Part shown: piece by piece, positions 4,392 through 24,024 of the stretch
How positions within the stretch are numbered: position 1 is the stretch's first letter
How the letters are laid out: each line of letters opens with the position of its first letter
NCBI RefSeq assembly: GCF_022763245.1
Contig: NZ_JALEGV010000026.1
Span: 1 to 64,000, forward strand
Direction of reading: 5' to 3'
DNA length: 64,000 nt
Source: Oricola sp.
GTDB taxonomy: Bacteria; Pseudomonadota; Alphaproteobacteria; Rhizobiales; Rhizobiaceae
Translations under genes and position numbers: made by a program
The notes under the pieces: model-generated
Seen by the model: only the letters and a program-made list of their open reading frames with translations
Databases searched by the model: none
Told to the model about the DNA's origin: nothing

Positions 4392-4416
4392 GCGCGCAAG
4401 ACTAGGCGTGCTTCCC

Positions 4417-4431
4417 GGCTGTTATGTTTTA
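4417..4431 (-). promoter_or_regulatory. Putative phage late promoter, copy 1 (tail fibre)
   Basis: On the minus strand this reads TAAAACATAACAGCC, followed 11 nt later by CTAG at about 4405-4402. It stands 26 bp upstream of the tail fibre ATG. It is one of five copies, all leftward and all at module starts. Confidence 0.7.
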
Positions 4432-4454
4432 CGGGCTTTCACAGACAAGCGAAC

Positions 4455-4484
4455 GCCGCCCGGTGCAGGGCAGGACCGGGCGGC
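4455..4484 (-). terminator. GC-rich hairpin between twin late promoters
   Basis: GCCGCCCGGT (4455-4464) and ACCGGGCGGC (4475-4484) form a perfect 10-bp stem with a 10-nt loop. On the minus strand the next bases are GTTCGCTTGTCTGT, moderately T-rich but not a full U-tract. It may stop or pause transcripts coming from the ejectosome genes or from promoter copy 2 before the tail fibre gene. Confidence 0.5.
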
Positions 4485-4538
4485 GCGTGTGTGCCGGAAC
4501 AGGACCGGTCCGGCCGGATCAACCTAGTCCGGCCGTTC

Positions 4539-4553
4539 GGCGGTTATGTTTTA
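4539..4553 (-). promoter_or_regulatory. Putative phage late promoter, copy 2
   Basis: The minus strand reads TAAAACATAACCGCC, one base off the consensus, with CTAGG beginning 12 nt after the motif end (about 4527). The motif includes the TAA stop codon of the upstream virion gene. It lies 122 bp upstream of copy 1, with a strong hairpin between them. Confidence 0.68.
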
Positions 4554-7046
4554 GCCACCCAGGGCTGCGCCGATATTCGGTGCCCGCTGCGGTGTTGCCG
4601 TTCCCGGCGCCCAGTAGAATTGCTGCCCGTATTCGCGCTCCCAGAATTGCTGCTGGCGCTTGAAGGCCTTGTTCGCTTCCGGATCGACCAGGAACTGCAC
4701 CTGGTCGAGAAGCATCCGTTCATAAGCCAGGCGCAGATACCAGATCGTTCCACCCGGTGTGTTGCCTCGCGCGAATTTCACGAGCTCGCGGCCGAAATGT
4801 GTCGTCTCGCCACTGGCCATCTGCACGACGTTGCCGGCGGTCAAATTCCAGAAGTCGTTGGCGCGCTGCACCAGCGGGCCGGCGACGGTCGTGCCGAACC
4901 CGCCGCCATAGCGGTTGATGCCGGAAAACAGGAAATCGCCATAGATCCCCAGTCCGCCGCCCTGCAGCATAGCCGCGCCCCAGTTCTTGGGGTCGGTCAT
5001 GTCCCGCGGATCTCGGCCGGCGGCGACTTGCTTCAGCTGCATCGCGGCCATGCCGAGCAATGTCGTCGAGATCAGCAGCGAGCCGGCATAGGCCGCCGCC
5101 TCGCGCCGCATGCCGCCGGTGACCATGCCGTGGATCCGCTGCCCGTGCAGCAGGATGAAGACCGCGCCGAAACTTTTGAACTGGGTGAAGCTGCGAGCGA
5201 TCTCGCCCATCAGCGTGCCGGGCCTGGTATCCCCGCGCAGGATCGTTTTCGACCGGTGCGATCCGCTGGGAACGGCATGCTCCATCTCCGTCTGGATCAT
5301 TTCCAGGTAACGTTCCGCAAGGCGCGGGTCGATCTGGTCGGCAATCTCGGCCGGCCGCAACACATCGACCTTGCCGCGCGCCTTGTGCAGCTTCGCCTTG
5401 CGCATCAGATCCCAGTCGCGAGCCCTGAACCCGTGCCGCTGCAAGGTCGATCGCAACGCATCCGGCAACGCATCGAAGGTCTGCCCAACGCGCGCGCCGA
5501 ACTCGATTTGAAACGCCATTCCCGTTCCATGCCGCGCGGCTTGCGTCCAGGGCGTCAAGCCCGAGATGGTCAACACCCGGTCGGCGAAATAGTTGGCCCA
5601 GGCCGGTCCGTCCAGCGTGCCGACATAGCGCGCCTGGGCGTGAAACACATGCTGCGCGCTGTCGAGGATAAGTCCCGCCGCAACAGCCTCGCGCCGGTTC
5701 ATCGATCCGAAATGCTTCAGGATGTCGAACAACGTTCCCTTGGCCGATATGCCGGCGAAGTGTCGCGCGATCGCCGATGTTCCCGCATCCGATATTGACG
5801 AGATCGCCGCCGCGCCGAGAACGCTTGACGTGATCAGCGATCGGCCGGCCGCCGCCACATTGGCCCAGCGGCGCGACACAGGGGTCTCGGCCTCGCCCCG
5901 GATCGAAGCCCAGACATCGTCGATCCGCTTCGAGTAGTAGTTCGCGCGCTCCAGGGCCTTCGCGCCATCGGCGGCGATCCGCCCCGGCTTGCCGGCCGCC
6001 ACTTTCTGCGCCTCCTTCATGATCGTCTGCTTGGCCAGCTCGATCGTGCTCGACGGGTTCGGCCCAAGGATTTCCATGGCCGCGATGTCGCGCGCCATCA
6101 TGTTGACGTGCCCCATCATCGCGGCGAACGGGTCTGCTCCGCCGCCAAACTGCGACTGGTATTCAAGCCATGTATCGGCGTCGCGGAAGATGAGGAAACG
6201 GTGCTCGGCCCGCTGATTGGCGAGCGCGCCCCGCCCGAAGGGCCGGCGCGCCGGCTCTCGATTGATCCAGCCTTCGGTCGTGATCGCGTAAAAGACATCG
6301 TCCAGGACGCTGTCCAGCTCGGCCGCATCCACCGGCTTTCCCGTCAAGGGGTACACCATGCGCTCGAGATCCAGCATCGGCCGCACCGTGTCTTTCCAGA
6401 CCTGCAGCCCGGCCTTGCGCAGGGCGCGCGCGTCATGGTGCTGCGGCAGGCCCCAGTTCTCGAGTTTGCCGATCGCGCCGCCGGCCTGGTTGAACCGCAG
6501 CCGCAGCCACTCATGCGTCTCGCGCCAGGCTTTCGCCAGTCCCTTTGCCGCCGCGTCGCCCGTGTCCTCGCCGAAGGCTTCGCGGGCCACGTTCTTCAGG
6601 TCTGCCGCGTTCCACCGGCCGGCGTCGCCCCGCAAGGCCCCTCGCCGGAAGTGGTAAAGCACTTCCTCCATCTTGCCATGCGCCATGCCGATGATCGCGC
6701 CGGTGCGACCCGCGACGGAGGAAAACGGCGCGTTGCCGAAATGCTCGAGCTTCAAAAGCCAGGCCTCGGCGATGTCGCGGCGGCCATCCGGCAGTTTGAA
6801 GCTTGTCACGTCGGCGACGTTCTGCTGCAGCGTCTTCAATGCCAGCTTTGCCTTGCGGCGCTTGTGCACTGTGTCGGCCCTCAGGCTGTCCAGCAGATCG
6901 GTTCGCGCCTGCTCGGCGGCGAGTGGATCCCCGCCTTCGGCGCGCGCGCTGCGCAACCGCTCGAAATCGGCCTCGAGGCGCGTCGCTTCCTCTTTGGAAA
7001 GTTCCCCGCCCGCGACCGCTTCGGCAAGACATTGTGCGATGCTCAT
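4551..7046 (-). CDS. Large internal virion/DNA-ejection protein (T7 gp16-like position)
   Basis: This 831-residue, mostly helical protein is the last of four consecutive large internal virion genes before the tail fibre, the position of T7 gp16. It contains long amphipathic helices and several hydrophobic stretches (for example AYAGSLLISTTLLGMAAMQL and TSSVLGAAAISSISDAG). These would suit a protein that forms a channel in the host envelope during ejection. I see no transglycosylase motif here; the lysozyme-like domain is in the 1020-residue neighbour. Starts at 7055 and 7046 are possible; 7046 was chosen because its ATG overlaps the upstream stop by 4 bp. Confidence 0.75.
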   Translation of the reverse strand: MSIAQCLAEAVAGGELSKEEATRLEADFERLRSARAEGGDPLAAEQARTDLLDSLRADTVHKRRKAKLALKTLQQNVADVTSFKLPDGRRDIAEAWLLKLEHFGNAPFSSVAGRTGAIIGMAHGKMEEVLYHFRRGALRGDAGRWNAADLKNVAREAFGEDTGDAAAKGLAKAWRETHEWLRLRFNQAGGAIGKLENWGLPQHHDARALRKAGLQVWKDTVRPMLDLERMVYPLTGKPVDAAELDSVLDDVFYAITTEGWINREPARRPFGRGALANQRAEHRFLIFRDADTWLEYQSQFGGGADPFAAMMGHVNMMARDIAAMEILGPNPSSTIELAKQTIMKEAQKVAAGKPGRIAADGAKALERANYYSKRIDDVWASIRGEAETPVSRRWANVAAAGRSLITSSVLGAAAISSISDAGTSAIARHFAGISAKGTLFDILKHFGSMNRREAVAAGLILDSAQHVFHAQARYVGTLDGPAWANYFADRVLTISGLTPWTQAARHGTGMAFQIEFGARVGQTFDALPDALRSTLQRHGFRARDWDLMRKAKLHKARGKVDVLRPAEIADQIDPRLAERYLEMIQTEMEHAVPSGSHRSKTILRGDTRPGTLMGEIARSFTQFKSFGAVFILLHGQRIHGMVTGGMRREAAAYAGSLLISTTLLGMAAMQLKQVAAGRDPRDMTDPKNWGAAMLQGGGLGIYGDFLFSGINRYGGGFGTTVAGPLVQRANDFWNLTAGNVVQMASGETTHFGRELVKFARGNTPGGTIWYLRLAYERMLLDQVQFLVDPEANKAFKRQQQFWEREYGQQFYWAPGTATPQRAPNIGAALGG

Positions 7047-8905
7047 AGGCGGCAAGCCTCCAGGATCGTTGCATAGTGGTCGCCCCGGTCGATCGCCTCG
7101 ATCGCCTCGCGAAACGTCACCGGTCCGTCATCCCAGGGGATCGTCTCGTCGCCGAAGGCTTCGACGTCGCGTGCGGCAACCGTGAACTTCTCGGGATGAT
7201 CGAACGTCTCCTCGAGCGTTCCGGCGAACGGCTCCAGCTGGCGGCCGTCGCTTGCCTCGAGGAGCGACGCATCGTCGAACCCGGCCGCCGGCTGGCCAGC
7301 ACGCGCATTCGGCGCCACCCGCGCCACCGCTGCACTGGCATCGATGCCTTCGTCGCGCATGGCTTCCATGGCGCGGATGACGGTCTCGTCGTCCAGGCCA
7401 GGGCCTTCGCGCGAAAGGATCGCGCTCGCATAGTCCTCGGCCTGCGCCCGGCCCGCGTCGAAATCGTCGGCCGCGCGCGACGCCGCGTCGGTCGCATCGT
7501 CGAACGGCACGACCCGTTCGCCCCGACTTTCGCGAAAGAGGAGCTGCAGGAGGTCGTCGGGCCGGGTGGACGCCGTCGCTGCATCGACGTTTCCGAACTC
7601 CCATAGATAGCCGTTTTGCGCTGCCAACTCGCGCGCGCGGTCCAGCGGCATGCCGCCCTTTTTGGCAAGCTTGCCGCGAAACGGCACCGTGACCCGTGCC
7701 AGGTCGCTGCCGCCGACGTCCGGATCGGCGATGTCGATCCCGCCGGCCTTGGCGAGGAATTCGGTCAGGCCTGTCTGGCGCGAAATGGCAGGCCGCGCGC
7801 TTTCGGGCATGACGCGCTCGACGATGCGGGTGAGCTGCGCCTCGTCGATGTCGAAGCGCAACGGCTCGTCCGGACCCGCCTCGAGCGCGCGGCTTGCCCG
7901 TGTCATCGCCTGGTCGTGCGTGTCTGGCTCGATCGCGCGAGGCTTCTCAGCGTCGAAGTGCCGAGCGGTCTCGATCGCGTCCAGCGCGCCCCGCGCTTCC
8001 GCCGGAAGCGCCTCGCGAATGGTCGGCAGTTCCGTCGCGGCGGCGGCGGCGTCGCCCGCCAACGCGCGGCGCACCGGTTCGCGGATCCGCGTGTCGGCCG
8101 CCAGCGCGCCGGCCGCGCGGTCCAGATCGGCTCCGCGCAACGCCCGGCCGATCAATTCGCCGGCGCCCTGCACGCCGCCGCCGAGAAGCGCGCCGGCGCC
8201 GGCTGCGAAGACGATGTTCAACATCGCCTGTTCGACGCCGTGATCAAGCCCGGCCTCCGCGCGCCAGGCCTGCACCATCGGCTGCAGCGACGCTTCCACC
8301 GCGCCGTTGATCAGCGCCTCTTTTGCGGCCACCGTCAGGATCCGGCCGCCGATCGTGCGCGCCGCGCCGGGGCCGCCACTTGCCACGATAGCAGCAACCT
8401 GCAACGGATCGCGCAAACTGCCCGACAGGCCGCCGCCGAGAAGCGCGCCCCATTTCGCAAGGCCGGGCCGTGACCCGGCGAGCCGGCTCACGCTCTCACT
8501 CGCCTCACTTGTGATCGCGCGGGCGTCTTCCTCGATCGTACGACCCGCCCCGATCAGATCGGCCTTGTCCGGGAACCGCTCGGCGAGCGCGCTCAGCTCG
8601 TCGCGAAACCGGCGTTTGGCCGCGTCGTAGCGGCTTTCGCCGGGCAACATCGACGCAAGCTCCTCGCGGCTGGGCATGCCGGAAACCGCCGCGCGCTGCG
8701 GATTGTCCAGTGTCGTGCCGGTTGCCGCCCGGATCGCCTCGATCCGCCGGTCATAGGCTTCCTCCATCGCCTGGCCCCGCGCCAGCGAATTGTCGACATA
8801 GATCGCCGCGTCCCGCGCCGCGCGCCAGATGTCGCCGAGATCGGCCTCGCCGCCAGCGAATGTGTCCAGCGCGCTCGAACGGGGAGGATGAAAATAGAAG
8901 CTCAC
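7043..8905 (-). CDS. Internal virion protein of the ejectosome
   Basis: This 620-residue protein is Ala/Asp/Glu/Arg-rich and mainly helical. It has a hydrophobic centre (about residues 145-240) with segments such as WGALLGGGLSGSLRDPLQVA and LNIVFAAGAGALLGGG. The C-terminal third is acidic. It lies between two larger internal virion genes, overlapping both by 4 bp, which suggests fixed-ratio co-translation. By position it matches part of the T7 gp15/gp16 ejection apparatus. No enzymatic motif is visible, and the exact T7 counterpart is uncertain. Confidence 0.72.
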   Translation of the reverse strand: MSFYFHPPRSSALDTFAGGEADLGDIWRAARDAAIYVDNSLARGQAMEEAYDRRIEAIRAATGTTLDNPQRAAVSGMPSREELASMLPGESRYDAAKRRFRDELSALAERFPDKADLIGAGRTIEEDARAITSEASESVSRLAGSRPGLAKWGALLGGGLSGSLRDPLQVAAIVASGGPGAARTIGGRILTVAAKEALINGAVEASLQPMVQAWRAEAGLDHGVEQAMLNIVFAAGAGALLGGGVQGAGELIGRALRGADLDRAAGALAADTRIREPVRRALAGDAAAAATELPTIREALPAEARGALDAIETARHFDAEKPRAIEPDTHDQAMTRASRALEAGPDEPLRFDIDEAQLTRIVERVMPESARPAISRQTGLTEFLAKAGGIDIADPDVGGSDLARVTVPFRGKLAKKGGMPLDRARELAAQNGYLWEFGNVDAATASTRPDDLLQLLFRESRGERVVPFDDATDAASRAADDFDAGRAQAEDYASAILSREGPGLDDETVIRAMEAMRDEGIDASAAVARVAPNARAGQPAAGFDDASLLEASDGRQLEPFAGTLEETFDHPEKFTVAARDVEAFGDETIPWDDGPVTFREAIEAIDRGDHYATILEACRL

Positions 8906-11900
8906 GATCCGTCACCGCGCAGCCCGAGCCGGCGCTCAGTCGGCGCGAGAACATCGACCGGTTTCATGAACGGCGACGACGGATCCGGCGCCGGAAACCG
9001 CAGGCGGCGCCTTTCGGCGAGGCGGCTGGCGTCCAGGACGAAATAGCCGCCGTCCAGGGCGGGAACATAACGCGGATCCTCGGAATAGGGATCGCCCAGG
9101 GCCAGCCGGTAAAGCCCCTGCCCGACATTCACGGGCACCGCGCGCTGCATTTGACGCACCGAAATCGGCACGCCGTTGATGCTGCCGGTCGCCATCTGCG
9201 AGGCAAGATCGCTTTCGCTGATATTGCGGATCAGCCCTTCCAGGGCGTCTGCTCGCATGTCGGGCGGCGCGATCGTCTCGACGCCGTTCACCATGGTCAG
9301 CCCGCCATATTTGACGCCATTGCGCTCCGTCGCCCCCAACACCTCGTCGATCGCCTGCTGGTAGGCCTCGCGCGCCATGTTGCCGGCATTGCCGAAATCG
9401 CTGGCATCGATGCCGAGCGCGGCGATCCGACGCTCGAACAGCACATTGGCCGTGCGCATCACCGCATTGCGCAATTGCGGCTGCGCGTAGAAGGCCGCGC
9501 CGGTGGCTTCGGCCGCAGCGCTTTCCAGCTTTGCATTCGAGGGCAGAGGGCTCTTGTAACCGTCTTGCGCGCGCATGTGCAGCGCTTCGGCGATCTCGAC
9601 CGCGAGCCGCTGGTTTCCGGTCGCATGGAAGAGGCCGCCGAGATGCGCCAGCACCGGCGCGTCCTTCGATATCTCCGCCAGCGCCGCCGGTGTCGCCTCG
9701 CCGAGCCCGGCGGTCAATCCTGCGACGATGCCGGGCAACTGCAACGGATTGTCCTGCACCGCCTTCTTCAGCGCGTCGGCCTCGGCGGGCGTGAAATAAC
9801 GCGGTGCGACGCCGTAATGCGAAGCGACGGCCTCGGCGTCGTTGACCCGTTCCGCGAGTGACGCCGTTAGCGCGGCGTCGTCGGAGAAGTCGATCGGCTC
9901 GATCGTCGCCACGCCGGCCGTCTGCGCCCAACTCAGCGGATCGTCGCGCAAGCCGTCGATCATCTGCTTGTGCAGGCCTTCCATCACGTCCAGCGTCGTC
10001 AACGCGCTTTCGTTTGCGCCGTCCTGCATCATCCTGGCGCGCATGGCGTCGATCTGCGCTGCGACCACTTGCGGGCGCACGGCGACATGCGCCCGTTGCC
10101 AGTCGGCGAGACCGTCGAGAAAATCCATGGTCGAGGTCAGTGCGGCGCCACCGGTTTCCGCCGCCGCCTGCGAGAGTGCCCGGCGCTGATCCTCCGGGAC
10201 AGGAAGGCCCTTTTTCAGGATCGATATCTGCCCGTTGATCTGCTTCGTCACCGCGGTCGCACGGCGTTCCGCGGCCAGTTCGTCGGCTTCCACCCGCCGG
10301 ATCAGCTCGGCATTGACCTTGTCATAGGTTCGTTCGTCCAGCCGGCCGCCGAACCCGTTGTCCTTCGCCCATTCGCCCTGGAACTCCTGGAGATATGCGG
10401 CACGCTCGGCGGGATCGTCGATCTGGTCGAAACGGCCGACGATCCGTGCCGAGACCACGTCCTGTTCGGTTTCCCGCAACAGCCTTTCGCGCGCGGTGGG
10501 CGGCAAGCCGGATGCGGCGATGTCGGCCCGCAAGGCGCGCAGCTCGCCGGCGATCGCCGCGTCGCTTTCGGGCGTGACGTCCGACGTCGTGGCTGTGCGG
10601 ATCAACGATGTCTTGCGGCTCGCGATCTGCGCTTCGAAGGAAACCCGGTGTTCCTCCTCGAGGCGGTCCTGGTAGCGGCGGGCCGCCGCGCTCATCAGGC
10701 TCACGCGATTGCGTTCGAAGCTTTCCGTTATGCTTGCGGCAACCTTCGCCGGCTGACCCTCGACATAGCCTTTCAGGGCGCCGTCCAGGGCTTCACCCAG
10801 GGCGCTCGGATCGCCCTCGTGCTGCAGCGCCAGCGCGTCCATCTGCGCCCGCATGCTGGTATCGAAGCGGTTGAGGGCGATATCCATGGCCGCTTGGTTG
10901 TATGCGTCCGCGCGGATTGTTCCGCCCTGCATCTGCGGAATGCCGCCGAGTGTTCCGGTCAACGAAACCCGCACGCCGCCATCGGCGGTCGCCGCGCCGC
11001 TCGTGCCGCCGGGCAGACGGCTCGCTGATCTCCGCTTCGCGTAGTCTTCAGCTTTTTCGCGACTGGCGAATACGGGAAACATTTCACCCGTGATTGGATC
11101 TATCGGTCCGTGTTTCTTGACGTACTCGGCAACCTCATCCTCGGTTTGAATATTGCCGAGTTCATCGACAGACGGAAACGTATACCATTGATCGCCAATA
11201 GGAAACGTGACTGTCTTCTCTGAATATTCGCCACCGTTGGGATCAACATAAGTCGGGCGGCCGCTGACCGTCCGCTTCCCTGTCGTGTGGCCGAGCCCCT
11301 GCGCAAATGCCAGGCGCCCGGCGAAATTGTGTCCGGCGCGAGGATCCGCGCGGCTGTATCCCTGCGGCCGCTCGAAATGCATGAACGCCGCTACTGCGCT
11401 TTCCACATCCGCTGCGCCGGCAAGCTGCAGGCCCGCATAGCGTTCTGTCGTCTTCAGTTCGTGCACGACGAAGTCGATCTGCGTGTCGGTGTCTTTCCAG
11501 TTGACGCCACGGCTCGCGGCATAGGTCTCCAGCTGGCGCGCACGCTCGCCACGCCACTGAAACAGGCCGATCGCCGTTCCGGCGTCGCCGCTCGCGTCCG
11601 GCCGTCCCGCGCTTTCCGCCTGAGCGTGGCCGGCAACCGCCTGCGCGGCATGCGGCGCGAAACCATGCACCCGAACGAGCCGATCGCGGATCCGCGCCGC
11701 CGTGTCGCCGGATGACGCCGCAGGTCCGGTTTCGGGGAAGGCGAAATCCACGCCGGGCATGGATACCTGCATCGCCGCCGCCGCGCCGGCTTCCGCGCCC
11801 TCGCGCTTCGCTGCCTTCGCCGCCATATTGGCCAGCCTGCCGGAAATCTGGCCGGCCGCGCTCGCGATCGCCTGGAATGTACCGACCGCGCCGGTGTCGT

Positions 11901-11964
11901 TGTTGACCGCGACGGATCCGCGACGCGGTGCGCGCGCATCGAAAGTCGGTATCTCGCGCGCCAT
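8902..11964 (-). CDS. Internal virion protein with phage tail-lysozyme domain
   Basis: This protein has 1020 residues. Residues about 85-215 resemble a phage tail lysozyme domain (AARIRDRLVRVHGF; HAQAESAGRPDAS; GTAIGLFQWRGERARQL), with a Glu in AQAES as likely catalytic acid. It would open peptidoglycan locally during DNA injection. A short domain at about 235-306 (TFPIGDQWYTFPSV...MFPVFASREKAEDYAKRRS) follows; its codons are visibly AT-richer than the surroundings, suggesting a separate origin. The rest is long helical coiled-coil-like sequence. It overlaps its downstream neighbour by 4 bp and the upstream gp14-like stop by 1 bp. Confidence 0.82.
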   Translation of the reverse strand: MAREIPTFDARAPRRGSVAVNNDTGAVGTFQAIASAAGQISGRLANMAAKAAKREGAEAGAAAAMQVSMPGVDFAFPETGPAASSGDTAARIRDRLVRVHGFAPHAAQAVAGHAQAESAGRPDASGDAGTAIGLFQWRGERARQLETYAASRGVNWKDTDTQIDFVVHELKTTERYAGLQLAGAADVESAVAAFMHFERPQGYSRADPRAGHNFAGRLAFAQGLGHTTGKRTVSGRPTYVDPNGGEYSEKTVTFPIGDQWYTFPSVDELGNIQTEDEVAEYVKKHGPIDPITGEMFPVFASREKAEDYAKRRSASRLPGGTSGAATADGGVRVSLTGTLGGIPQMQGGTIRADAYNQAAMDIALNRFDTSMRAQMDALALQHEGDPSALGEALDGALKGYVEGQPAKVAASITESFERNRVSLMSAAARRYQDRLEEEHRVSFEAQIASRKTSLIRTATTSDVTPESDAAIAGELRALRADIAASGLPPTARERLLRETEQDVVSARIVGRFDQIDDPAERAAYLQEFQGEWAKDNGFGGRLDERTYDKVNAELIRRVEADELAAERRATAVTKQINGQISILKKGLPVPEDQRRALSQAAAETGGAALTSTMDFLDGLADWQRAHVAVRPQVVAAQIDAMRARMMQDGANESALTTLDVMEGLHKQMIDGLRDDPLSWAQTAGVATIEPIDFSDDAALTASLAERVNDAEAVASHYGVAPRYFTPAEADALKKAVQDNPLQLPGIVAGLTAGLGEATPAALAEISKDAPVLAHLGGLFHATGNQRLAVEIAEALHMRAQDGYKSPLPSNAKLESAAAEATGAAFYAQPQLRNAVMRTANVLFERRIAALGIDASDFGNAGNMAREAYQQAIDEVLGATERNGVKYGGLTMVNGVETIAPPDMRADALEGLIRNISESDLASQMATGSINGVPISVRQMQRAVPVNVGQGLYRLALGDPYSEDPRYVPALDGGYFVLDASRLAERRRLRFPAPDPSSPFMKPVDVLAPTERRLGLRGDGS

Positions 11965-16434: not shown

Positions 16435-17298
16435 TCAGGCGGTCGGCAACGAAATGTCGTTGGGGACGTATTTCGCCTTCAGCTTCACGGTGCCTTCCGG
16501 CAGCAGCAGCTTGGAGCCGATGCGCATGCGCATGTTGTGGGTCCAGCAATCCTTGCGGTTGTCCCAGTCCACCGTTCCGGTGAGCTCGCGCACATAGCCG
16601 AAGCCGATCGACGAGCGGTGCCACATCAGGCAGGTCGCCTGGGTGTCGGCGTCCTTTTCGCGCAGCGTCTTGTCGGACAGCGAGAAGATGTGCATGCCGT
16701 TCCAGCTCTTGGCGAGATTGCCCTTCACGAAAGGCAGGTCCGGCCCGACATAGTCCGCATTGGCGATCCGCTTGTCGCCGATCAGCATCGTCCAGCTCAC
16801 GCTGTCGACCGCGACGAACACGTTGCCGTCCTGCACCTCGACGTCGTTCGCCATCAGCACCTGCTTGCCCTTGACCAGCGTGTTGACGCTCATCAGGTCG
16901 GTGAACGCGCCGACCTCCTGGGTCGCGGCGCGAAGTGCCCGCACGATCGTCTTGTCGTGAACGCGGCCCAGCGCGGCGGCCGAACGCTTCGAAACCGCCT
17001 GCTTGCGGTTGACGGTCATCTGGTCGAGATCGTCCTCATAAACCTCCTCGAACGCGCGGCTCTTCTTGGTATCGACCGCCACCGTGGTGTCGTTCGGATT
17101 GGAGGGCTTGGCGGTGTCGCCGCGCTTCACGTCTTCCTCGGCCTCGACGATGCCGAAGATCGGGAAGTGCATTTTCTCGCCGGTGATCTTCTCCGGCGCG
17201 GTCGTGGTGTTGCGGAGCGCGAAGCCGCCCGACTGATATTCGTGCAGCGCGGTCATTTTCCACTGCTGCACGTAATGGTTGGATGCTGTCTGAGACAT
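16435..17298 (-). CDS. Major capsid protein
   Basis: This 287-residue protein begins MSQTASNHYVQQWKMTALHE. It contains motifs typical of major capsid proteins in T7-like prophages of Proteobacteria (HFPIFGIVEAEEDVKRGD; TKKSRAFEEVYEDDLDQM; WHRSSIGFGYVRELTGTVDWD). It follows the scaffold gene and a late-promoter copy, as expected for the most highly expressed virion protein. Its fold is presumed HK97-like; no protease gene is next to it, in keeping with T7-type assembly without head maturation protease. Confidence 0.85.
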   Translation of the reverse strand: MSQTASNHYVQQWKMTALHEYQSGGFALRNTTTAPEKITGEKMHFPIFGIVEAEEDVKRGDTAKPSNPNDTTVAVDTKKSRAFEEVYEDDLDQMTVNRKQAVSKRSAAALGRVHDKTIVRALRAATQEVGAFTDLMSVNTLVKGKQVLMANDVEVQDGNVFVAVDSVSWTMLIGDKRIANADYVGPDLPFVKGNLAKSWNGMHIFSLSDKTLREKDADTQATCLMWHRSSIGFGYVRELTGTVDWDNRKDCWTHNMRMRIGSKLLLPEGTVKLKAKYVPNDISLPTA

Positions 17299-17594
17299 GG
17301 TCTGTTCCCGTGAATGAGAGGTTCAAGCCGGGGGCCGAGTGCCAGCCGCTGCTCGGGCCTTTCATGTCTGACGGGTGCCAAGCGCGTTCCGGGTCCATCC
17401 ACCGATGCCGGGAGACGATAGGCGCGCGCGCGGGCTGTTATGTTTTAGGGGATCTCCCGCCGGCGACTTGCGCTTGCAGGCGGGATAGCGAGAAAACGGG
17501 CGGCGGACTGAGTCCCTACGGTCGTACCGTCCCTCAAAGGTGCTGGGAGCCTCGCGAGCTGTACCAGACCGCCCTCTGGGTATTCGCATTCTGC
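17299..17594 (-). promoter_or_regulatory. Noncoding gap before capsid gene with late-promoter copy 3
   Basis: At 17433-17447 the minus strand reads TAAAACATAACAGCC, followed 11 nt later by CTAT (about 17421-17418). A run of alternating GC bases lies between the two elements. Upstream of the motif are a 6-bp CCCGCC/GGCGGG inverted repeat (about 17458-17486) and a small ACGGT-ACG-ACCGT hairpin near 17519-17531. No gene fits in the gap. The layout suggests a strong promoter dedicated to the capsid gene. Confidence 0.7.
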
Positions 17595-18494
17595 TCAGTC
17601 GGGATAGAATTCCTTGAACATCGCCGTGGTGCGTTCGGCGAAATCCGGCTGGTACTTCGGATTGCCGCTGTCGTTGCGCGGGTCGGCGACACGCGCCTCG
17701 AGTTCCGCCTTGGTGAAACTCGGCGCCGGCTGGCCGCCGGGCTGCACGCTCTGTGTCATGCCGCCGCGCATCAGGCTTTCGATCACCGCCACACCGTCCG
17801 CCGACGTCGTCAGCAGGCGCAATTCGTTTTTCATGCCGTCGGTGTAGCCCTGCGCCTCAGTCAACTGCTTCACCCAACTGTCGGCGGCCGTCAGCCTTTG
17901 CGCCCCGCGCACCTGCTTGTCCGTCGCGGAACCCTTGAAGTCGGCCGGCGCGAGGCTTTCCAGGAGCGCGTTGTTGTCGATCGGCTGCTCGATCAGGCCC
18001 TTTTCCGCCATCTTCTCGAAGAACTTCGGAACCGCGTCGATCTGCTGCTGCGTGAAACCGTGCTCATGCGCGATTTCGCGGAAGGTCGCGACCGCCTGGT
18101 CATCCTCGGCGATCGATCCTTTCAAGGCCTCCGGCCATTCGAACGTGTAGGCGTCGGCCTTTTCCGGCACGTCCGGCGACTTGCCCTTGGCCAGTTCGTC
18201 GCGCGCACCCTTGTAGGCGTTGGCCAGCCGGTCGATCGTCTCCTGGTCGGACTGGCCGATAAGGTGTTCGGGCAGGCCGTCCGGCTTGTGCAGCTGCGCG
18301 TTCTGCCCGTCGCCGCCGCCGATCGGCAGCGTCCGGTTGCCCTGGGTCGCGTCGTTCGGGTCGGGCTGGGCGGGCGGACTTGCCGGCGGTTGCCCGGCAG
18401 GCGGACCGCCGGGCGTCGTCGGTTGCTGCTGGCCGCCGGGCGGATCCAGCGGCGGTGTGTCGGGGGCGGGATTGAGCCCGTGATCATTGCTCAT
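17595..18494 (-). CDS. Capsid assembly scaffolding protein
   Basis: This 299-residue acidic protein has a Pro/Gln-rich disordered N-terminus (about residues 8-60, with repeats of PPA/PPG and QP). Long charged helices follow (DQETIDRLANAYKGARDELAKG). The disordered, acidic, helical make-up and its place directly before the major capsid gene match T7 gp9-type scaffolds. It overlaps the upstream gene by 4 bp. It would guide procapsid assembly and then leave the head. Confidence 0.8.
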   Translation of the reverse strand: MSNDHGLNPAPDTPPLDPPGGQQQPTTPGGPPAGQPPASPPAQPDPNDATQGNRTLPIGGGDGQNAQLHKPDGLPEHLIGQSDQETIDRLANAYKGARDELAKGKSPDVPEKADAYTFEWPEALKGSIAEDDQAVATFREIAHEHGFTQQQIDAVPKFFEKMAEKGLIEQPIDNNALLESLAPADFKGSATDKQVRGAQRLTAADSWVKQLTEAQGYTDGMKNELRLLTTSADGVAVIESLMRGGMTQSVQPGGQPAPSFTKAELEARVADPRNDSGNPKYQPDFAERTTAMFKEFYPD

Positions 18495-18934
18495 CGTTCG
18501 TCGTCCTGTGCTTGGTTCGGCCTGTTTTCCGCCAGGGCGATGGCCGCGAAAATACCCCTGACGAATTTGCAGCGCACGTCATGCGCCATCAGCAGCGGCG
18601 CGATGACGTCCATTGGCAGTTGCGCATCTTCCGGATAAGGCTCGGCCCGCAGGGACTGATCGAGGAAGATCTCCAGCACCTTGCGGCCGGCCGGCGTCAT
18701 GAAGCAGTCGCGAAAGGCGTTCGCCTCGTTTTTCATCGCCCGCGTGCTTTCCTCGCGCTGCTTGGCGAGCGCGTCGGCCGGGCTCTCTATCCCGCCCCAG
18801 CCCGCGCCTTGTTCCATGCCGAGCGACCGCATCGCCGCGCCGAGAAGATCGTCCAGCGACGGCTGCTCGCCGAAATACCGCCCCGGATCGTCCGGATCGA
18901 TGCCGTGGTCGTTCGACTTGTCGATAGTCGTCAT
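18491..18934 (-). CDS. Small phage head-module protein
   Basis: This 147-residue helical protein includes a conserved-looking core ANAFRDCFMTPAGRKVLEIF and a Gly-rich stretch near residues 40-50. It lies between portal and scaffold and overlaps the scaffold start by 4 bp. The core, with TPAGRKVLE and LDQSLRAEPYPED nearby, suggests a conserved podovirus protein. The function is not known; assembly or a minor virion role would fit the place. Confidence 0.6.
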   Translation of the reverse strand: MTTIDKSNDHGIDPDDPGRYFGEQPSLDDLLGAAMRSLGMEQGAGWGGIESPADALAKQREESTRAMKNEANAFRDCFMTPAGRKVLEIFLDQSLRAEPYPEDAQLPMDVIAPLLMAHDVRCKFVRGIFAAIALAENRPNQAQDDER

Positions 18935-18952
18935 GTGCCCTGCCCTGTTGCC

Positions 18953-20545
18953 TTAAGCGATCGGCTGCGCCGGTGGCGGTTGCGCCGGCTCCGGTTGCTG
19001 TTGCTGCTGCGCGATCATCTGCGCCAGCGCCTGCTGGATCTTCTTCTTGTCGGTCTCCGAGCGCAGGAACCGTTCCGGAATGCCGAGCTTGCGGCCGATC
19101 TCCGTGAAGACGTCTTCCACCTTCGCGGTGAGCATCATCATTTCGCGCCCGCCGAGCCCTGCCGTGATCTGCAGCCATTCGACGAGCGACGAAACGTCCT
19201 GCGCCTGCTGCTGCTTGGCGATCGGCGACACCACTTCGACCCGTGTGATCAGCTGGTCGATCGAAATCGAAACCTTCAGCAGCTTTCGGCGATAAAGGAT
19301 GTCGATGATCCGCTGCACGAGCGGCTTGATGATTTCGAGGATCAGCCGCGCATAGGCCCCGGACAGGTCCTGGCTGAGCCGCTTCATCCGCTCGACGATC
19401 TCCGTCGCCGAACGCACCGCGCCGCTGTCGGGCGGCAGCGTGTCGTCGAGCATCACCTGCTTCACGTTCTCGCGCAGATCCTGCAGGATCAGGTTCGAGA
19501 TGTCGAAACGGCCGGGCACGTCCAGTTTCTGGATCGAAGCGCCCATCGTGCCGCCTGTCGCGCCGACCGGCCACATCGCGCCAGGCGCCATTTTCGCCGT
19601 TTTCGGGTTGAACACCCGGTCGTTTCGATAGATCCACAGGCCCAGAATGGCGAAGGCCGCAGCCTTGATCGAAAGCTCCGTCACCTTGTTCAGCGTCTTG
19701 GCGGTCGGCAGGCCCATCAGGCCGGGGCCGCGCCCCATCGCCTCGCCGGGAACCTTGTAGAAACGGGGCGTGATCCAGGGACAGGTCCGTTCGTTGACCG
19801 CATGGATCGATCCCTCGTCCTTGCCGTGGTCGCTGTCGAACGCCGAGAACTCCCACATCCGGCTCTCTTCGTCGAACTCGCAGGCCTGCGTGATGCTGAC
19901 CTTGGTCTCTGGCTCGTCTTCGATCAGCCGCCTCAGCCGGTCGCTCAACCGTGCCGATTTCCACATGCCGGGAATGTTGGAAGCCTTGAATTCCTTCTTC
20001 CAGTAGATCCCGTTGACATGGCCGGCGCCATCCTCGCGCAAGGCGATCTCGCCGATCGGCACCGCCAGGAAGCGCGCGATGTCGTGTTCGTGCTCGAGAA
20101 TGAGCATCGCCCCGGTGCCGCCGAACAGGTCGAGATACATCTCGCCGGAGGACACCGCGAAATCCGCGCCCTCGATGACGGCGCTGACCTTCGCCGTCAC
20201 GATCGCCAGTTCTTCCTCGATCGCCTTTTTTTCGTCGCCGTCGATGTTGAGATACGGACCGACCTTCAGTTCGAAGAAACGTTGAAAGGCCGGCGTCACA
20301 TCCTGCTGCATGCGCCCGGCGAAGCGGAACGCCGCCTTGGTCGCGGTGCTGTCGAAAACGCGATCGACCCGGCCTGACGTGGTCGCCGAGCCCGTGCCGG
20401 AGGGTGCCCTATAGGGCAGCACGTATTCATAGAGTTCGTCCAGCCGCGCTTTCTGGCCGGAGCAGTCCTGATAGGCTGCCTCGCATGCTTTGGACGTGCG
20501 CTTGAGGTCGCGCGCCGGCATGTCCTGTTGAGACGTATCCGCCAT
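18953..20545 (-). CDS. Portal (head-tail connector) protein, T7 gp8-like
   Basis: This 530-residue protein begins MADTSQQDMPARDLKRTSKA and resembles T7-like head-tail connectors. Features include the early LYEYVLPYRAPSGTGSA segment, DSTATKAAFRFAGRMQQDVT and the TLPPDSGAVRSATEI motif. A Gln/Pro-rich tail ends the protein. It would form the dodecameric DNA portal. The start was chosen because its ATG shares a base with the stop of the 66-residue upstream gene (TGATG). Length is close to T7 gp8 (536 residues). Confidence 0.88.
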   Translation of the reverse strand: MADTSQQDMPARDLKRTSKACEAAYQDCSGQKARLDELYEYVLPYRAPSGTGSATTSGRVDRVFDSTATKAAFRFAGRMQQDVTPAFQRFFELKVGPYLNIDGDEKKAIEEELAIVTAKVSAVIEGADFAVSSGEMYLDLFGGTGAMLILEHEHDIARFLAVPIGEIALREDGAGHVNGIYWKKEFKASNIPGMWKSARLSDRLRRLIEDEPETKVSITQACEFDEESRMWEFSAFDSDHGKDEGSIHAVNERTCPWITPRFYKVPGEAMGRGPGLMGLPTAKTLNKVTELSIKAAAFAILGLWIYRNDRVFNPKTAKMAPGAMWPVGATGGTMGASIQKLDVPGRFDISNLILQDLRENVKQVMLDDTLPPDSGAVRSATEIVERMKRLSQDLSGAYARLILEIIKPLVQRIIDILYRRKLLKVSISIDQLITRVEVVSPIAKQQQAQDVSSLVEWLQITAGLGGREMMMLTAKVEDVFTEIGRKLGIPERFLRSETDKKKIQQALAQMIAQQQQQPEPAQPPPAQPIA

Positions 20546-20745
20546 CAGCCGCCAAGCGTCGATTTGCGGGACTGGTCGCGATAGGCGAGCGACTTGCGCA
20601 GGCTGCTCGCCCGGCTGGCGAGCGCGAGGCGCTGATCCGCCTCGGCGTCGGCGCGGCTGGCTTTCTGGTACTGATCCGCTTGCAGTGCCTTCTCGGCCGC
20701 GGTCGGCCCCTGCTGCGCGCCGAACAGCTTTCCGATTTGTTCCAT
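20545..20745 (-). CDS. Small charged phage protein
   Basis: This 66-residue, highly charged helical protein starts MEQIGKLFGAQQGPTAAEKA. It is rich in A, R, Q and S with no hydrophobic core. It lies between late-promoter copy 4 and the portal gene, and its stop shares a base with the portal start. A minor virion or assembly role is possible; nothing more can be read from the sequence. Confidence 0.6.
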   Translation of the reverse strand: MEQIGKLFGAQQGPTAAEKALQADQYQKASRADAEADQRLALASRASSLRKSLAYRDQSRKSTLGG

Positions 20746-20795
20746 GGATCGCGTCCCGTTCTGAGCTACGGTCCGCAACAGTAAGAGCGCGCATC

Positions 20796-20810
20796 GGCTG
20801 TTATGTTTTA
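20796..20810 (-). promoter_or_regulatory. Putative phage late promoter, copy 4 (portal module)
   Basis: The minus strand reads TAAAACATAACAGCC with the second element CTTAC beginning 11 nt downstream (about 20785). The motif contains the TAA stop of the GNAT-like gene and stands 51 bp upstream of the next start. Downstream genes are the small charged protein, portal and head genes. Confidence 0.7.
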
Positions 20811-21217
20811 GCGTCGGGGGGCCGCACCCAGGTGCGCACCCGCGTGCCCGGCAACCACTCGTCGATCGGCAGGAACCCGGAAAGCCGCGCGATCCGCTCG
20901 CCGGCACGATGGCCCTCAAGGATGCGGCAAATCAGCAGGTCGTTCGGCAGCACCGTCGCCAGCCGCAGCATCAGCGCCCGCATCGCCGCCACCCGGTGCG
21001 GCGAATGCCGCAGTCGCGTTGAGGCGAGAAACCACGCCTCGATCACTCCGCTGCCGATCGGCGCCAGTCCGCACAGGCCCAGCCGCTCCTCGCCCGACCG
21101 GATCGCCCAGGCCGGATAGTCGCGGATCTGCATCGTCAGCTTCTGGAAGTGCCGGCGCGGCGTTGCCCGCCGCACCGCGACCAGATCCTCCAATTCGGCC
21201 GGGCGGAACTCGATCAT
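20801..21217 (-). CDS. GNAT-fold phage protein
   Basis: This 138-residue protein begins MIEFRPAELEDLVAVRRATP and ends IARLSGFLPIDEWLPGTRVR. The N-terminal RPAELEDL and the 'R...GF' end are features of GNAT acetyltransferases. The central acetyl-CoA loop is weak (LRHSPHRVAAMRALM). Proteins of this size between terminase and portal are common in podoviruses and may serve in virion assembly rather than acetylation. Start and end overlap: ATGA with terL, and the TAA stop lies inside late-promoter copy 4. Confidence 0.68.
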   Translation of the reverse strand: MIEFRPAELEDLVAVRRATPRRHFQKLTMQIRDYPAWAIRSGEERLGLCGLAPIGSGVIEAWFLASTRLRHSPHRVAAMRALMLRLATVLPNDLLICRILEGHRAGERIARLSGFLPIDEWLPGTRVRTWVRPPDAKT

Positions 21218-22788
21218 GACCGGTACACGTCGAAATCGGTGTTGATCATCACGGTGCCGACCGGCTCGTCGTAGCCGGCGCCGTCCGTGTGGATCTTGTC
21301 GCCGCGCCCGCCCATCAACTCGCCGCGCACGATGCCGGCGACGCCGAGAAGATCCTCGACCGCGTATTGCAGCGCGTCGTGCGGATTGGAGAATTCGTTC
21401 TTCTCCGGCACCGGGTCTGTCCGGTTGTCGTTGCCTTTGCGCTTCTTGTAGCGATAGCCGGAATTGAAGCCCTTGCGCGTTTTCTTCGCGCGCGTCCCGT
21501 CCAGGATGAATGCCGGCTTGTGACCATCGATCCGGTAGCGCAGCAGCTGCCGCACCCCGTCCTGGCGAATGTTCAGTTCCTGGCTTTCGGCGGGCCAGAT
21601 CGTGATCCCCATCACTTGCTGGACGGTCTCGAACATCGCAAGGTCGCCGGTCTCGCTGTCGCCGCCGTAGAAGCCGGCCGGATCGCCCGTCGCCCGCTCG
21701 ATTTCGAAGCCCGGAAACTCCGATGCGAGATAGACCTTGCACCCCCGGCCGAAGCCGGTCGGCCCGATCCGGCCGGGACAATACTCGCCAAGCAACCGCA
21801 ATTGCCCGTCAGGCGTCCACTGCAACACGAGCATGGCCGGGCCGGTCACTCCCTGGTCGAAACCGAGCCGCAACTTCAGCCCCGGTATCGCCTTCAGGCC
21901 CTCCGCGTCGCAATGCACGAGATCGTCATATTCCGGATAGACCGGTTCGCCCTCGCGCGAGTAACCCCATTGCCCGTCCACCATGCGCTGCACCCACCAG
22001 GGCCGGTGCGCGTTGGTGACTGCCATCTTTTCGTAGATCTCACGACTGATCGCCTGCCGGTTTTCACCGTTCGGTCCGCGCCCGGACGGCTGGCGATAAA
22101 GCTTGTGGCCGGTAGGCTTGTCCTCTTCGAACACGCCATAGGTCCAGTTTTCCGGATCCGGAGGGTTCAAGTCGCCCGTTACGCAGGTGTAATAGTCGGT
22201 CCCCGGATCGAAAAACCGTTTGGGCGGATAGCGCTGCTGCAGCGCGCGGCCGATCAGATAGGTGAGCACGTCACCGGACTGCTGGTCGGCCTCGCCCATG
22301 TTCGCCGTCGTGAATTCGATGCCGCGCAAGGCGGCGTCCACGTCAGCGTCCTGGATCGCCTGGAACACGATCTCGAAATAGAGATTGCCGCCATCCGGCA
22401 TTTGGAAAACGAGCTGATGCGTCGCTTTCCGCCCCTCCCCGCCCGACCAGTTCCCCACATCAGGCCCGAACCAGGACCACCATGAACGCACCGTCGTGCC
22501 CCAAAGGTTCTGATAGGTGTCGCGGATCTCCAGATGCCGGTGAAGTCGGTGGCCGGCAAACTGCCCTTTGCTGCATCGCGGCATGAAATTGGCGCAGGTC
22601 AGCTTGTCGAAGAAGTTGACATTCGTCTTGCCCGAGCCGATCGGCCCCATGATGAACCGCACCCAGTTCGCCCGGTCCTTCATGAACGCTTCCGCTACCG
22701 GGCCCGGCACCTGGTAGGATCGCAGATCCACTTTCTCGAGCTTCAGGCTCCGATAGAGGTCGATCGCGGCTTGCTGGTCTGCATTCAT
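21214..22788 (-). CDS. terL: Terminase large subunit
   Basis: This 524-residue packaging motor has a Walker A motif GPIGSGKT at about residues 48-55, preceded by WVRFIM. ATPase-centre residues follow (GIEFTTANMGEAD). The C-terminal nuclease part includes LRLGFDQGVTGPAMLVLQ, an RNase H-like first acidic strand, and NPHDALQYAVEDLLG, the usual last acidic motif. It cuts and pumps DNA into the procapsid. The ATG at 22788 gives a normal Walker A spacing. An upstream GTG at 23070 in the same frame overlaps the terS stop but would add an Arg-rich 94-residue extension. Confidence 0.9.
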   Translation of the reverse strand: MNADQQAAIDLYRSLKLEKVDLRSYQVPGPVAEAFMKDRANWVRFIMGPIGSGKTNVNFFDKLTCANFMPRCSKGQFAGHRLHRHLEIRDTYQNLWGTTVRSWWSWFGPDVGNWSGGEGRKATHQLVFQMPDGGNLYFEIVFQAIQDADVDAALRGIEFTTANMGEADQQSGDVLTYLIGRALQQRYPPKRFFDPGTDYYTCVTGDLNPPDPENWTYGVFEEDKPTGHKLYRQPSGRGPNGENRQAISREIYEKMAVTNAHRPWWVQRMVDGQWGYSREGEPVYPEYDDLVHCDAEGLKAIPGLKLRLGFDQGVTGPAMLVLQWTPDGQLRLLGEYCPGRIGPTGFGRGCKVYLASEFPGFEIERATGDPAGFYGGDSETGDLAMFETVQQVMGITIWPAESQELNIRQDGVRQLLRYRIDGHKPAFILDGTRAKKTRKGFNSGYRYKKRKGNDNRTDPVPEKNEFSNPHDALQYAVEDLLGVAGIVRGELMGGRGDKIHTDGAGYDEPVGTVMINTDFDVYRS

Positions 22789-23066
22789 CGCGCCATATCC
22801 CCCGACCCCAGGGCCACCGCGTTTGGTTTCCCGCACATATGCGAACCGGCGAGACCCGTTTCGGAAGCTGAAAATCGCACGGCGATGCCCTCTTCTCTCA
22901 GCGAAACCCGATTTCGGGGAACGCCCCGCCCTGCCGGGCCGGCTGAGAAGAGGGCCACCCCTCCGGCCCGCCGGCCGTCTGCCGTCCCTCTCGCCGGCCA
23001 GCGCCAGGCGAAGCGCCGCTGAAACAGCATCAGCGGGTCTGTCAAAGGTTTGTTCAACGTTTTCAA
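22785..23066 (-). CDS. Doubtful ORF filling the terS-terL gap
   Basis: A 93-codon frame begins with TTG one base after the terS stop and ends in a TGA that overlaps the terL ATG (ATGA). A later ATG (MLFQRRFAW) is possible. The peptide is Arg/Gly/Ala-rich with no motif (for example GVALFSAGPAGRGVPRNRV), and no Shine-Dalgarno is evident. The tidy junction with terL argues for a gene; composition argues against. Otherwise this 278-bp gap holds only GC-rich short inverted repeats. Confidence 0.3.
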   Translation of the reverse strand: MKTLNKPLTDPLMLFQRRFAWRWPARGTADGRRAGGVALFSAGPAGRGVPRNRVSLREEGIAVRFSASETGLAGSHMCGKPNAVALGSGDMAR

Positions 23067-23657
23067 TCACTTATCCTCATCGTGTGCCGGTTCGTCGTGT
23101 GCCGCCTCGTCGTCGGCTTCGCTAAGCTCTTGATTTTGCTGCATTTCCTGATTGCCCTCGATCAGCTGCCCGAACACCTGGTCGAGGCTCGGCTCGTCGC
23201 CCTGGGCGGCGCCCATGAACACCGCCAGCACGCCCGCATTGGCCCCCGGCAGGTCGATCGCGATCGGCAGCTTCTGCGCCACATACGGCGCCAGGTCGTT
23301 CGCGCATTTGCGCCAGAACTCGGCCGCCTCGATCTTCTTGCAGCCCAGCGTCGCCGCGATCGCGTCGATCGGCATGGCCACGACCTCCGCTAGCCCGATG
23401 ATCGGGTTCTTCCCCGTCGCCTCGATCAGCTTGACCAGGTCGCGCGTCGATCGGTTCCGGGATCCCTTCGGCCGCCCCGGTCCGCCCTTCACCGTCTCGC
23501 CGCCGGACGTCACGATGGTCCCGAACACGCTCGAGCCGGCGAAGAGATCGTGCTGGATCTTCTCCTCGCCCTCCTGGCGCAGCTCGCCGGACAGCTCCGC
23601 CGCCTTCCCGTCCAGGTCGAGGGCCTTGGCCAGCCCGGTCTGCTTGTCATCGGCCAT
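23067..23657 (-). CDS. terS: Terminase small subunit
   Basis: This 196-residue protein has a basic motif GGPGRPKGSRNRSTRDLVKL in the first half, then a helical core (PIDAIAATLGCKKIEAAEFW) and a very acidic tail (DDEAAHDEPAHDEDK). It would recognise the packaging site and load TerL. The ATG at 23657 follows a good AGGGGG site at 6-7 nt; a GTG two codons upstream is less likely. It is preceded by a 0.4-kb noncoding block with TGGAACA repeats and late-promoter copy 5. Confidence 0.78.
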   Translation of the reverse strand: MADDKQTGLAKALDLDGKAAELSGELRQEGEEKIQHDLFAGSSVFGTIVTSGGETVKGGPGRPKGSRNRSTRDLVKLIEATGKNPIIGLAEVVAMPIDAIAATLGCKKIEAAEFWRKCANDLAPYVAQKLPIAIDLPGANAGVLAVFMGAAQGDEPSLDQVFGQLIEGNQEMQQNQELSEADDEAAHDEPAHDEDK

Positions 23658-23710
23658 ATTCACCCCCTTTTTTATTCAAGCGGTTGAATTTCAAGGTGTT
23701 TTCACGCTTC

Positions 23711-23943
23711 TGGAACACTGGAACAAAGCCCGTTCCATTCACTTTTCCTGCTAACTCACTGATAACTCTATGACTTTCTGAAAGTGGAACATTGGAACAA
23801 TGGAACACGCATTCTCTTACGCGCGCACGCGCACGCGAGGCTTTCCCGTTCCAGTGTTCCACTGTTCCAGATGTCGATTTCATCAATGATGTCAGTGCCT
23901 TGTGGCGACTTCGCAATGGAACGTCTCGCGCTCCACTGTTCCA
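23711..23943. repeat. Direct and inverted TGGAACA repeat array, 8-bp period
   Basis: TGGAACA units lie at 23711 and 23719 (direct pair), and at 23785, 23793 and 23801 (direct triple). The reverse complement GTTCCA lies at 23732; at 23848, 23856 and 23864 (inverted triple); and at 23938 with a degenerate copy at 23930. A single TGGAAC is at 23917. Units inside a block are always 8 bp apart. The direct and inverted triples can pair over 22 bp with two mismatches, around a loop of about 40 nt. This looks like iterons or clustered operators, or a strong RNA hairpin. Confidence 0.85.
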
Positions 23944-24009
23944 CCCTGACCCGCCGGCCGCTCGAAACACCGCGCGGAAACTTCTCTGAAGACTATGGGT
24001 CGGGGTACG

Positions 24010-24024
24010 GGCTGTTATGTTTTC
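24010..24024 (-). promoter_or_regulatory. Putative phage late promoter, copy 5 (terminase module)
   Basis: The minus strand reads GAAAACATAACAGCC, with CCATAG beginning 11 nt further on. It stands 353 bp upstream of terS, just after the helicase gene, and transcripts from here would run through the TGGAACA array. Confidence 0.65.

Follow-up and report, generated by a model that had tools for sequence, protein, structure and literature searches.

A T7-like temperate prophage in an Oricola strain carries five copies of a two-part element at the junctions of its late genes, and we think it probable that these elements are late promoters at which a small phage protein, related to the gene transfer agent (GTA) activator GafY, binds a phage-specific block and recruits the host RNA polymerase. 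The prophage lies in the window, the 64,000-nucleotide stretch analysed here, which makes up the first 64 kb of C2, one of the 45 contigs of the strain's 5.6-Mb genome (G000). On the minus strand the element reads (T/G)AAAACATAAC(A/C)GCC, and its five copies fall at the junctions of the terminase, portal, capsid and tail-fibre modules (Table 1). Judged from sequence, the elements look like phage late promoters in which a block that diverges between phages occupies the −35 region and is followed by a host-type −10. An initial annotation of the window had taken them for likely late promoters, read by a phage-coded polymerase, sigma factor or activator or by an unusual host factor; a phage-coded reader gains support from their positions, from the fixed spacing of the −10 and from the concerted divergence of the block between related phages.

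A repeated element with a sigma70-type −10

Scanning the window with GGCTGTTATGTTTTA (reverse complement TAAAACATAACAGCC) at up to three mismatches returned five matches, at exactly the coordinates initially annotated; 100 shuffles gave 0.16 matches on average and 2 at most, and no shuffle gave 5. Across the whole genome, TAAAACATAACNGCC at zero or one mismatch found the five window copies only, and the earlier remark that no copy was seen elsewhere in the window holds. Two mismatches admitted seven further genome sites, and the control, the pattern read backwards at up to two mismatches, gave 7. The module placement first described is also borne out: the copy at 24010 precedes the gene in the position of the terminase small subunit (TerS) and the terminase large subunit gene (TerL), that at 20796 precedes a short open reading frame (ORF) and the portal gene, that at 17433 precedes the major capsid gene, and those at 4539 and 4417 form a tandem pair upstream of the gene in the tail-fibre position. 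Two copies carry the stop codon of the preceding gene, as had been noticed: the ORFs at 4551–7055 and 20801–21781 end in the TAA of the motifs at 4539 and 20796.

Each copy is followed by a sigma70-type −10 hexamer, TANNNT (5/5). This hexamer starts 12 nt past the 15-mer in four copies and 14 nt past it in the terminase copy, and it is in each case the only TANNNT within 45 nt downstream, against a strand background of 0.0011 per position. At the terminase copy CATAGT overlaps TAGTCT and starts at 12, and NANNNT therefore occurs at a single spacing in 5/5. The A at +14 that had been reported in 5/5 is indeed there, and the TANNNT hexamer describes the second element better. The accompanying statement that the pattern does not fit sigma70 applies to the −35 part, which does depart, and fails for the second element, which is of the sigma70 −10 type. 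A TTGACA-like −35 hexamer with 16–18-nt spacing was not found in the window, which has ATAACA at a 15-nt gap; relatives have GTAACA, GTGACA or GCAACA in this place, and TTGACG occurs in some phages only, also at 15.

The block changes in concert between related phages

We compared the prophage with related prophages and IMG/VR phages (G and L labels). Portal searches with the single protein found no relative in the genome and viral contig collections, and alignments were needed to find them. The closest relative is the prophage of Oricola cellulosilytica (G002), from the same host genus, whose portal is 72% identical. At the corresponding junctions it carries AAAAGGTAACAGC, in five copies of which two deviate by one mismatch, and TANNNT follows all five at an unchanged distance; together, the window and G002 copies give 10/10. 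Other related phages have further block variants at the same junctions (GAAACGTGACAGC, TAAACGTGACA, GAAACGTAACAC, AAAACGCAACAC, AAAACCGTAACA, CGCAATTGACGC, CGCAACTGACGC and GACACATTTGACC). The proposal to look for the motif in related prophages was rewarded with a version of the block peculiar to each phage, at the same junctions and changed in concert. A block that has shifted at every site at once, in phages whose hosts belong to the same genus, argues for a phage-coded reader.

The spacing to the −10 is kept across these variants. With offsets counted from the end of the ACA-type hexamer, and with sites picked by the block and not by the −10, NANNNT stands at offset 15 in 53 of 59 sites from 14 phages (background 3.0%), where junctions within one phage are mutually unrelated and those common by descent across phages are not independent. 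Any other offset from 0 to 35 has NANNNT in at most 10 sites, the register between motif groups (ACA, ACG or ACC end) being set by eye, and TANNNT stands at offset 15 in 31/59 (background 0.17%). Two rows were left out of the 59: that of G075 at 7184, which has two mismatches and lacks a −10, and that of G065 at 10918, an additional copy on the terminase side. The latter has no NANNNT at 15, and its inclusion gives 53/60. The spacing in G071 is 16 nt in 5/5. One or two stray xxACA-type matches in L084, L091 and L123 were not counted, nor were the ambiguous xxACA matches in G015 (6 forward versus 3 reverse), and G024 and G044 had no such block among the top repeated words listed. When repeated 13-mers ahead of any NANNNT were sought blindly, GC-rich words from coding sequence drowned the signal in all but G062.

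The inner fibre promoter offers a further view of the −10. The gap from this hexamer to the fibre ATG is 7 nt in the window, G002 and G062, 6 nt in G061 and 8 nt in G071, and the fibre mRNA from the inner promoter is therefore predicted to be leaderless or nearly so, which fits a true −10. This layout is absent from G063, G065 and G066, where the fibre gene starts further downstream. The two fibre promoters (window 4417–4553) lie 122 bp apart, and such tandem pairs also occur in G002, G061, G071 and G062. Nine close relatives including the window (17391–17403, minus strand) have GGTGGATGGACCC, or a sequence close to it, shortly after the capsid promoter; about 90 nt before the capsid gene, it may be a conserved leader or a tiny ORF.

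A GafY-like protein is the leading candidate reader

The unseen phage polymerase or sigma factor that the initial annotation had envisaged is unsupported. Sigma70_r2 (PF04542) matched 0 of 9 phage records, with controls matching in 10 of 14; the host genome has 11 Sigma70_r2 matches, none on the prophage contig C2, and the prophages of G002, G012, G013 and G074 fell outside this search. RNA_pol (PF00940) matched none of 12 genomes or records, nine phage records among them, a weak negative given that its control matched 0/14. The factor had been expected to the left of the window, and the best candidate instead lies inside it, at 27961–28359 on the minus strand.

This candidate came from an all-against-all comparison of early ORFs of at least 55 amino acids on the late strand of 14 phages, with the integrase and repressor outside its range. 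Three families were common to 14/14 phages, namely the helicase, the primase and the GafY-like protein, and the last is the only regulator-like early family in all 14. It is small and basic and lies directly before the primase, where its gene had been masked by a false extension of the primase ORF (26834–28384). Other candidates were set aside: tblastn with the CI-type helix-turn-helix (HTH) repressor (31334–32038) found no match in G002, and a further HTH protein belongs to a cluster that covers 7 of the 14 phages but not the window's own. A protein clustered in 7 of the 14 phages lies in the early regions of G061, G063, G064, G065 and G071, with G012 and G013 also in the cluster; its N-terminal part is ribbon-helix-helix-like, and its C-terminal part recalls GcrA.

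An AlphaFold2 model of the GafY-like family of 14 sequences has a mean predicted local distance difference test (pLDDT) score of 89.7. Its first nine PDB matches are all DnaA (probability 1.00, template-modelling score by target up to 0.81), at E values of 0.006–0.11 and none at 0.001, and by this model the 132-amino-acid protein resembles DnaA domain IV. Profile comparison with hhalign matched the phage family to a host GafY homologue with a probability of 96.6, and to three such homologues with 97.5, as against at most 2.65 for the control, 94 other early ORFs of four phages. Searched against the window's own genome, the phage profile hit a host gene beside a DUF6456 gene at an E value of 9.5e-13. 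By these sequence comparisons the phage protein is homologous to the host GafY homologue, a name that rests on the place beside DUF6456 and on likeness, Caulobacter GafY itself standing outside the comparison. A third, weaker profile match in the same genome (G000:C44:33268-33516, E = 1.8e-6) is distinct from both the prophage copy and the copy beside DUF6456. Of 151 family genomes, 129 match the profile, host GafY and prophage copies being counted together.

Neither Pfam nor PHROGs has a family for the window's protein, and a tblastn search with it through 50,697 phage records had no match at E 0.01. Of the 13 other relatives nine were scanned, and some of these gave weak Pfam matches below the cut-offs: Bac_DnaA_C (0.03 and 0.14), KORA (4e-5), Sigma70_r4_2 (0.008), MarR_2 (1e-4) and HTH_3 (3e-4). 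Passages of PMC9632790 present GafY as a GTA activator homologous to DnaA domain IV. GafA, in the relevant parts of PMC9638019 and PMC6363796, binds near the −10 and −35 regions of RcGTA promoters and contacts the omega subunit of RNA polymerase.

Motif and protein vary together

Among 10 close phages, distance between motifs correlated with distance between GafY-like domains (r = 0.77; partial r = 0.64 given the helicase; 0 of 2000 permutations). The recognition helix taken by itself gave r = 0.71 (partial 0.52, 1/2000), and TerL gave r = 0.55 (partial 0.33, 103/2000). From the sequences, the class of recognition helix appears to follow the class of motif: a T-K/R helix, in five phages (G012, G013, L087, L090 and G074), pairs with (T/C)TGAC blocks, and an R-P/H-R helix, in nine phages, pairs with xxACA blocks. 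The helix is T-K-Q in L089 and G072, two loci whose block was at that point still missing. When TTGAC followed by a −10 at 15 was sought in eight loci, the coding strand had two sites in L089, three in G072 and none in the other six; the reverse strand had none in seven loci and one in L091. Four of the five L089 and G072 sites lie between late genes (helicase/TerS twice, TerL/portal, and after the scaffold gene), and one lies further downstream.

Several observations weigh against a GafY-like reader. The adjacent primase nearly equals the GafY-like domain among the 10 close phages (r = 0.72, partial 0.57, 2/2000). When 16 phages are compared, raw correlations are 0.82 for the primase, 0.80 for TerL, 0.79 for the helicase, 0.77 for the domain and 0.74 for the helix, and partial correlations are 0.40 for the helix, 0.38 for the primase, 0.29 for the domain and 0.27 for TerL. 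By these sequence distances co-variation does not single out the GafY-like protein, and we take it as support, not proof. In L122 and G075 the xxACA blocks go with helices that fall outside both classes. G075 (L111/L112), with block CGTAACACGCGC, has its −10 at 20–21 in three sites; this is about half a helical turn farther out than in the other 15 phages. The motif was not found, or was not convincing, in L084, L085, L086, L088, L091 and L123, and the first five of these have a GafY-like gene all the same; none was found in L123. DUF6456, the GafZ family, gave one match each in G000, G002 and G012, all off the prophage contig, in a search of these three genomes that left phage records aside. 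The TTGAC-phage block is close to a host −35, and sigma70 might contribute directly there. Finally, the account of Caulobacter in parts of PMC11150451 puts the GafY element roughly between −123 and −113 instead of at −35, and has GafY act with GafZ and integration host factor (IHF).

Alternative readers of the block

The best surviving alternative, which we consider unlikely, is that a different early phage protein, such as that at 29414–30184 or 26014–26709, reads the block, and that the GafY-like protein has another function, for example in replication initiation alongside the primase and helicase. Comparison of the two Oricola phages shows both candidates to be fast-changing (25% and 32% identity, respectively), as a reader of a changing block might be, and the first has a weak C-terminal winged-helix match. 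The GafY-like gene in turn overlaps the start of the primase gene and models as a DnaA fold, and the primase co-varies with the motif almost equally. Yet a relative of 29414–30184 is detectable in G002 only, whereas the promoter layout is found in 15 phages and as a variant in G075, and the cluster of 26014–26709 covers 12 of 14 phages and chains out-of-frame ORFs; neither was kept as a reader. Unlike origin repeats, the blocks sit where genes begin and are followed by a −10 at a constant distance. The sections of PMC9632790 on GafY treat it as a transcription activator and argue that it does not act on oriC replication.

That host sigma70, or another host sigma factor, reads these promoters alone and makes a phage factor unnecessary seems to us improbable. 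The −10 is sigma70-like and several blocks contain −35-like hexamers (TTGACG, GTGACA), as this reading would have it. But the block is longer than a −35 hexamer, its letters are conserved within and not between phages, and between two phages from the same host genus the block differs at every one of the five sites. Sigma70 prefers a gap of about 17 nt, and the 15-nt gap here is short for it.

We give still less credence to the idea that the blocks are repressor sites (stoperators or operators) that silence late genes in the lysogen at otherwise ordinary promoters. L5-like mycobacteriophages reportedly have such sites, dispersed, asymmetric and diverging between phages, and the blocks share this pattern, including their orientation with transcription. 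However, stoperators need no −10 at a fixed distance, and 53/59 sites have one; no block copy lies in the early or repressor region; and in the one phage pair that allows the comparison, the blocks of G000 and G002 are nearly the same, yet tblastn finds no counterpart in G002 for the CI-type repressor of G000, and a different small HTH protein takes its place there.

Least credible is a phage-coded single-subunit RNA polymerase or sigma factor missed by the family searches. In its favour, the virion genes are T7-like, T7-like phages usually encode such an enzyme, and the contig is cut at window base 1. Against it stand the negative searches described above (RNA_pol in 12 genomes or records, weak because its control was silent; Sigma70_r2 in nine phage records), and the layout of block, gap and TANNNT is unlike a T7-type promoter.

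A proposed mechanism

We propose that a GafY-like activator works on promoters of three parts: (i) an asymmetric phage-specific block of 12–15 bp at about −39 to −25, where a −35 hexamer would otherwise lie; (ii) a gap of 15 nt past the ACA end of the block; and (iii) the sigma70-type −10, TANNNT. With the −10 set at −12 to −7 and the block over about −39 to −25, a bound protein would therefore sit in the usual place of sigma region 4. We infer that the GafY-like protein binds the block, in what way it does so, that it is an activator and that its partner is sigma70. It would bind probably as a monomer, with its recognition helix at the xxACA end and a basic loop over the upstream A-tract, and would replace or support the contact of sigma region 4 at −35. 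Host RNA polymerase with sigma70 would in this way be held on promoters that have no normal −35 at normal spacing. Once the early operon had been expressed, the terminase, portal, capsid and fibre operons would fire in synchrony.

At T4 MotA promoters and class II activator promoters a factor binds where the −35 would be, and the sigma70 −10 is kept at fixed spacing. T4 middle promoters resemble the arrangement proposed here in these respects, and differ in that MotA is an unrelated protein, reads a different box and serves middle rather than late genes; no AsiA-like partner was identified here, where none was sought. The DnaA box is TTATCCACA. In the xxACA phages the block likewise is asymmetric, AT-rich at one end and ending in ACA at the other, and its outline (A-tract, about four bases, ACA) recalls TTATCCACA and would fit an asymmetric monomer site for a protein with the same modelled fold. 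In contrast to the DnaA box, the block is one base longer between these ends and has other inner letters, and the role proposed for it is in promoters, not origins. The Autographiviridae share the T7-like virion genes and the promoters before capsid and fibre, but no phage RNA polymerase was found here by the searches above and the promoter is bipartite with TANNNT.

GafY and GafA are the nearest comparison: the window protein shares with them a DnaA-domain-IV-like modelled fold, homologous sequence, small size and a proposed role as an activator of virion genes through host RNA polymerase. Unlike them it is phage-borne and adjoins a primase, and no GafZ (DUF6456) match lies on the three prophage contigs checked. 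In the phage a distinct motif recurs in the −35 position of five promoters; in Caulobacter, by contrast, the portions of PMC11150451 that treat the GafY element place it at about −123 with IHF. The Caulobacter authors, in the corresponding part of PMC9632790, could predict no GafYZ binding motif, and a passage of PMC11150451 calls GafY prediction difficult.

Prophage setting

The T7-like assignment of the prophage rests on its connector (phrog_332), T7-type scaffold (PF05396), capsid (phrog_3437) and tail proteins. It also has a GTA-type holin, an endolysin, a weak integrase match (33683–35038) and a tRNA-Lys (35908–35983). The TerS-position and tail-fibre-position genes have no family match, and their names rest on position and conservation; TerL has distant relatives annotated as TerL at 25–31% identity. 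Directly before the GafY-like gene, a 103-amino-acid protein of the early region (28363–28674, minus strand) has a match to the Tad2-like family (Thoeris anti-defence 2; E = 4.4e-24). The contig start (window position 1) falls within the prophage lysis and tail genes, and the left prophage end lies outside the contig.

Table 1. Late elements, −10 hexamers and genes of the Oricola prophage, in window coordinates.
Feature	Position	Strand	Remarks
Late element 1, GAAAACATAACAGCC	24010..24024	−	Upstream of TerS-position gene and TerL
Late element 2	20796..20810	−	Upstream of short ORF and portal; contains stop of preceding ORF
Late element 3	17433..17447	−	Upstream of major capsid gene
Late element 4 (one change)	4539..4553	−	Outer of tandem pair before tail-fibre-position gene; contains stop of preceding ORF
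Late element 5	4417..4431	−	Inner of tandem pair, directly before fibre ATG at 4391
−10 region, late promoter 1	23990..23997	−	TAGTCT 23990–23995, or CATAGT 23992–23997 in common 15-nt register
−10 hexamer TACTGT, late promoter 2	20778..20783	−	
−10 hexamer TATCGT, late promoter 3	17415..17420	−	
−10 hexamer TAGGTT, late promoter 4	4521..4526	−	
−10 hexamer TAGTCT, late promoter 5	4399..4404	−	Fibre ATG begins 7 nt further
GafY-like protein, 132 amino acids	27961..28359	−	Proposed late activator reading the element; DnaA-domain-IV-like model
Primase-like protein (DUF7146/Toprim)	26834..27964	−	Start probably GTG 27964, overlapping end of GafY-like gene
Replication protein, here called helicase	24069..26000	−	Last gene before late region; phrog_21086; second match DNA primase family
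TerS-position gene	23067..23663	−	Terminase small subunit by position
Terminase large subunit (TerL)	21214..22788	−	Listed ORF 21214–23070; N-terminal extension probably false, likely start ATG 22788
Portal / head-tail connector	18953..20545	−	phrog_332; listed ORF start 20794, likely start ATG 20545
T7-type capsid assembly (scaffold) protein	17595..18494	−	PF05396
Major capsid protein	16435..17298	−	phrog_3437
Virion structural protein	4551..7055	−	phrog_684
Tail-fibre-position gene	2412..4391	−	Named from position and conserved N terminus

Implications

Neither phage promoters that depend on an activator nor activators of the GafY type are new in themselves. Judged by title and the start of the abstract, no paper among the matches listed in the open-licence PMC literature describes GafY-like late promoters of phages, in which the two are joined and a proposed helix–motif code links the protein to a block at −35. 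We are evenly divided on a wider reading, in which GafY and GafA would belong to a family of phage late activators, small DnaA-domain-IV proteins that occupy the −35 place of host promoters, with a readable helix–motif code (T-K/R with (T/C)TGAC, R-P/H-R with xxACA) for which these phages would supply a clear DNA motif, and GTA control would derive from a phage late switch. In about 18 phages, two to six promoters per phage contain a block specific to that phage, which also encodes a GafY-like protein. The recognition code, the contact with RNA polymerase and a possible phage origin of GTA control are therefore directly testable in these phages. For a T7-like temperate phage, the arrangement suggests a route to late transcription without a polymerase of its own.

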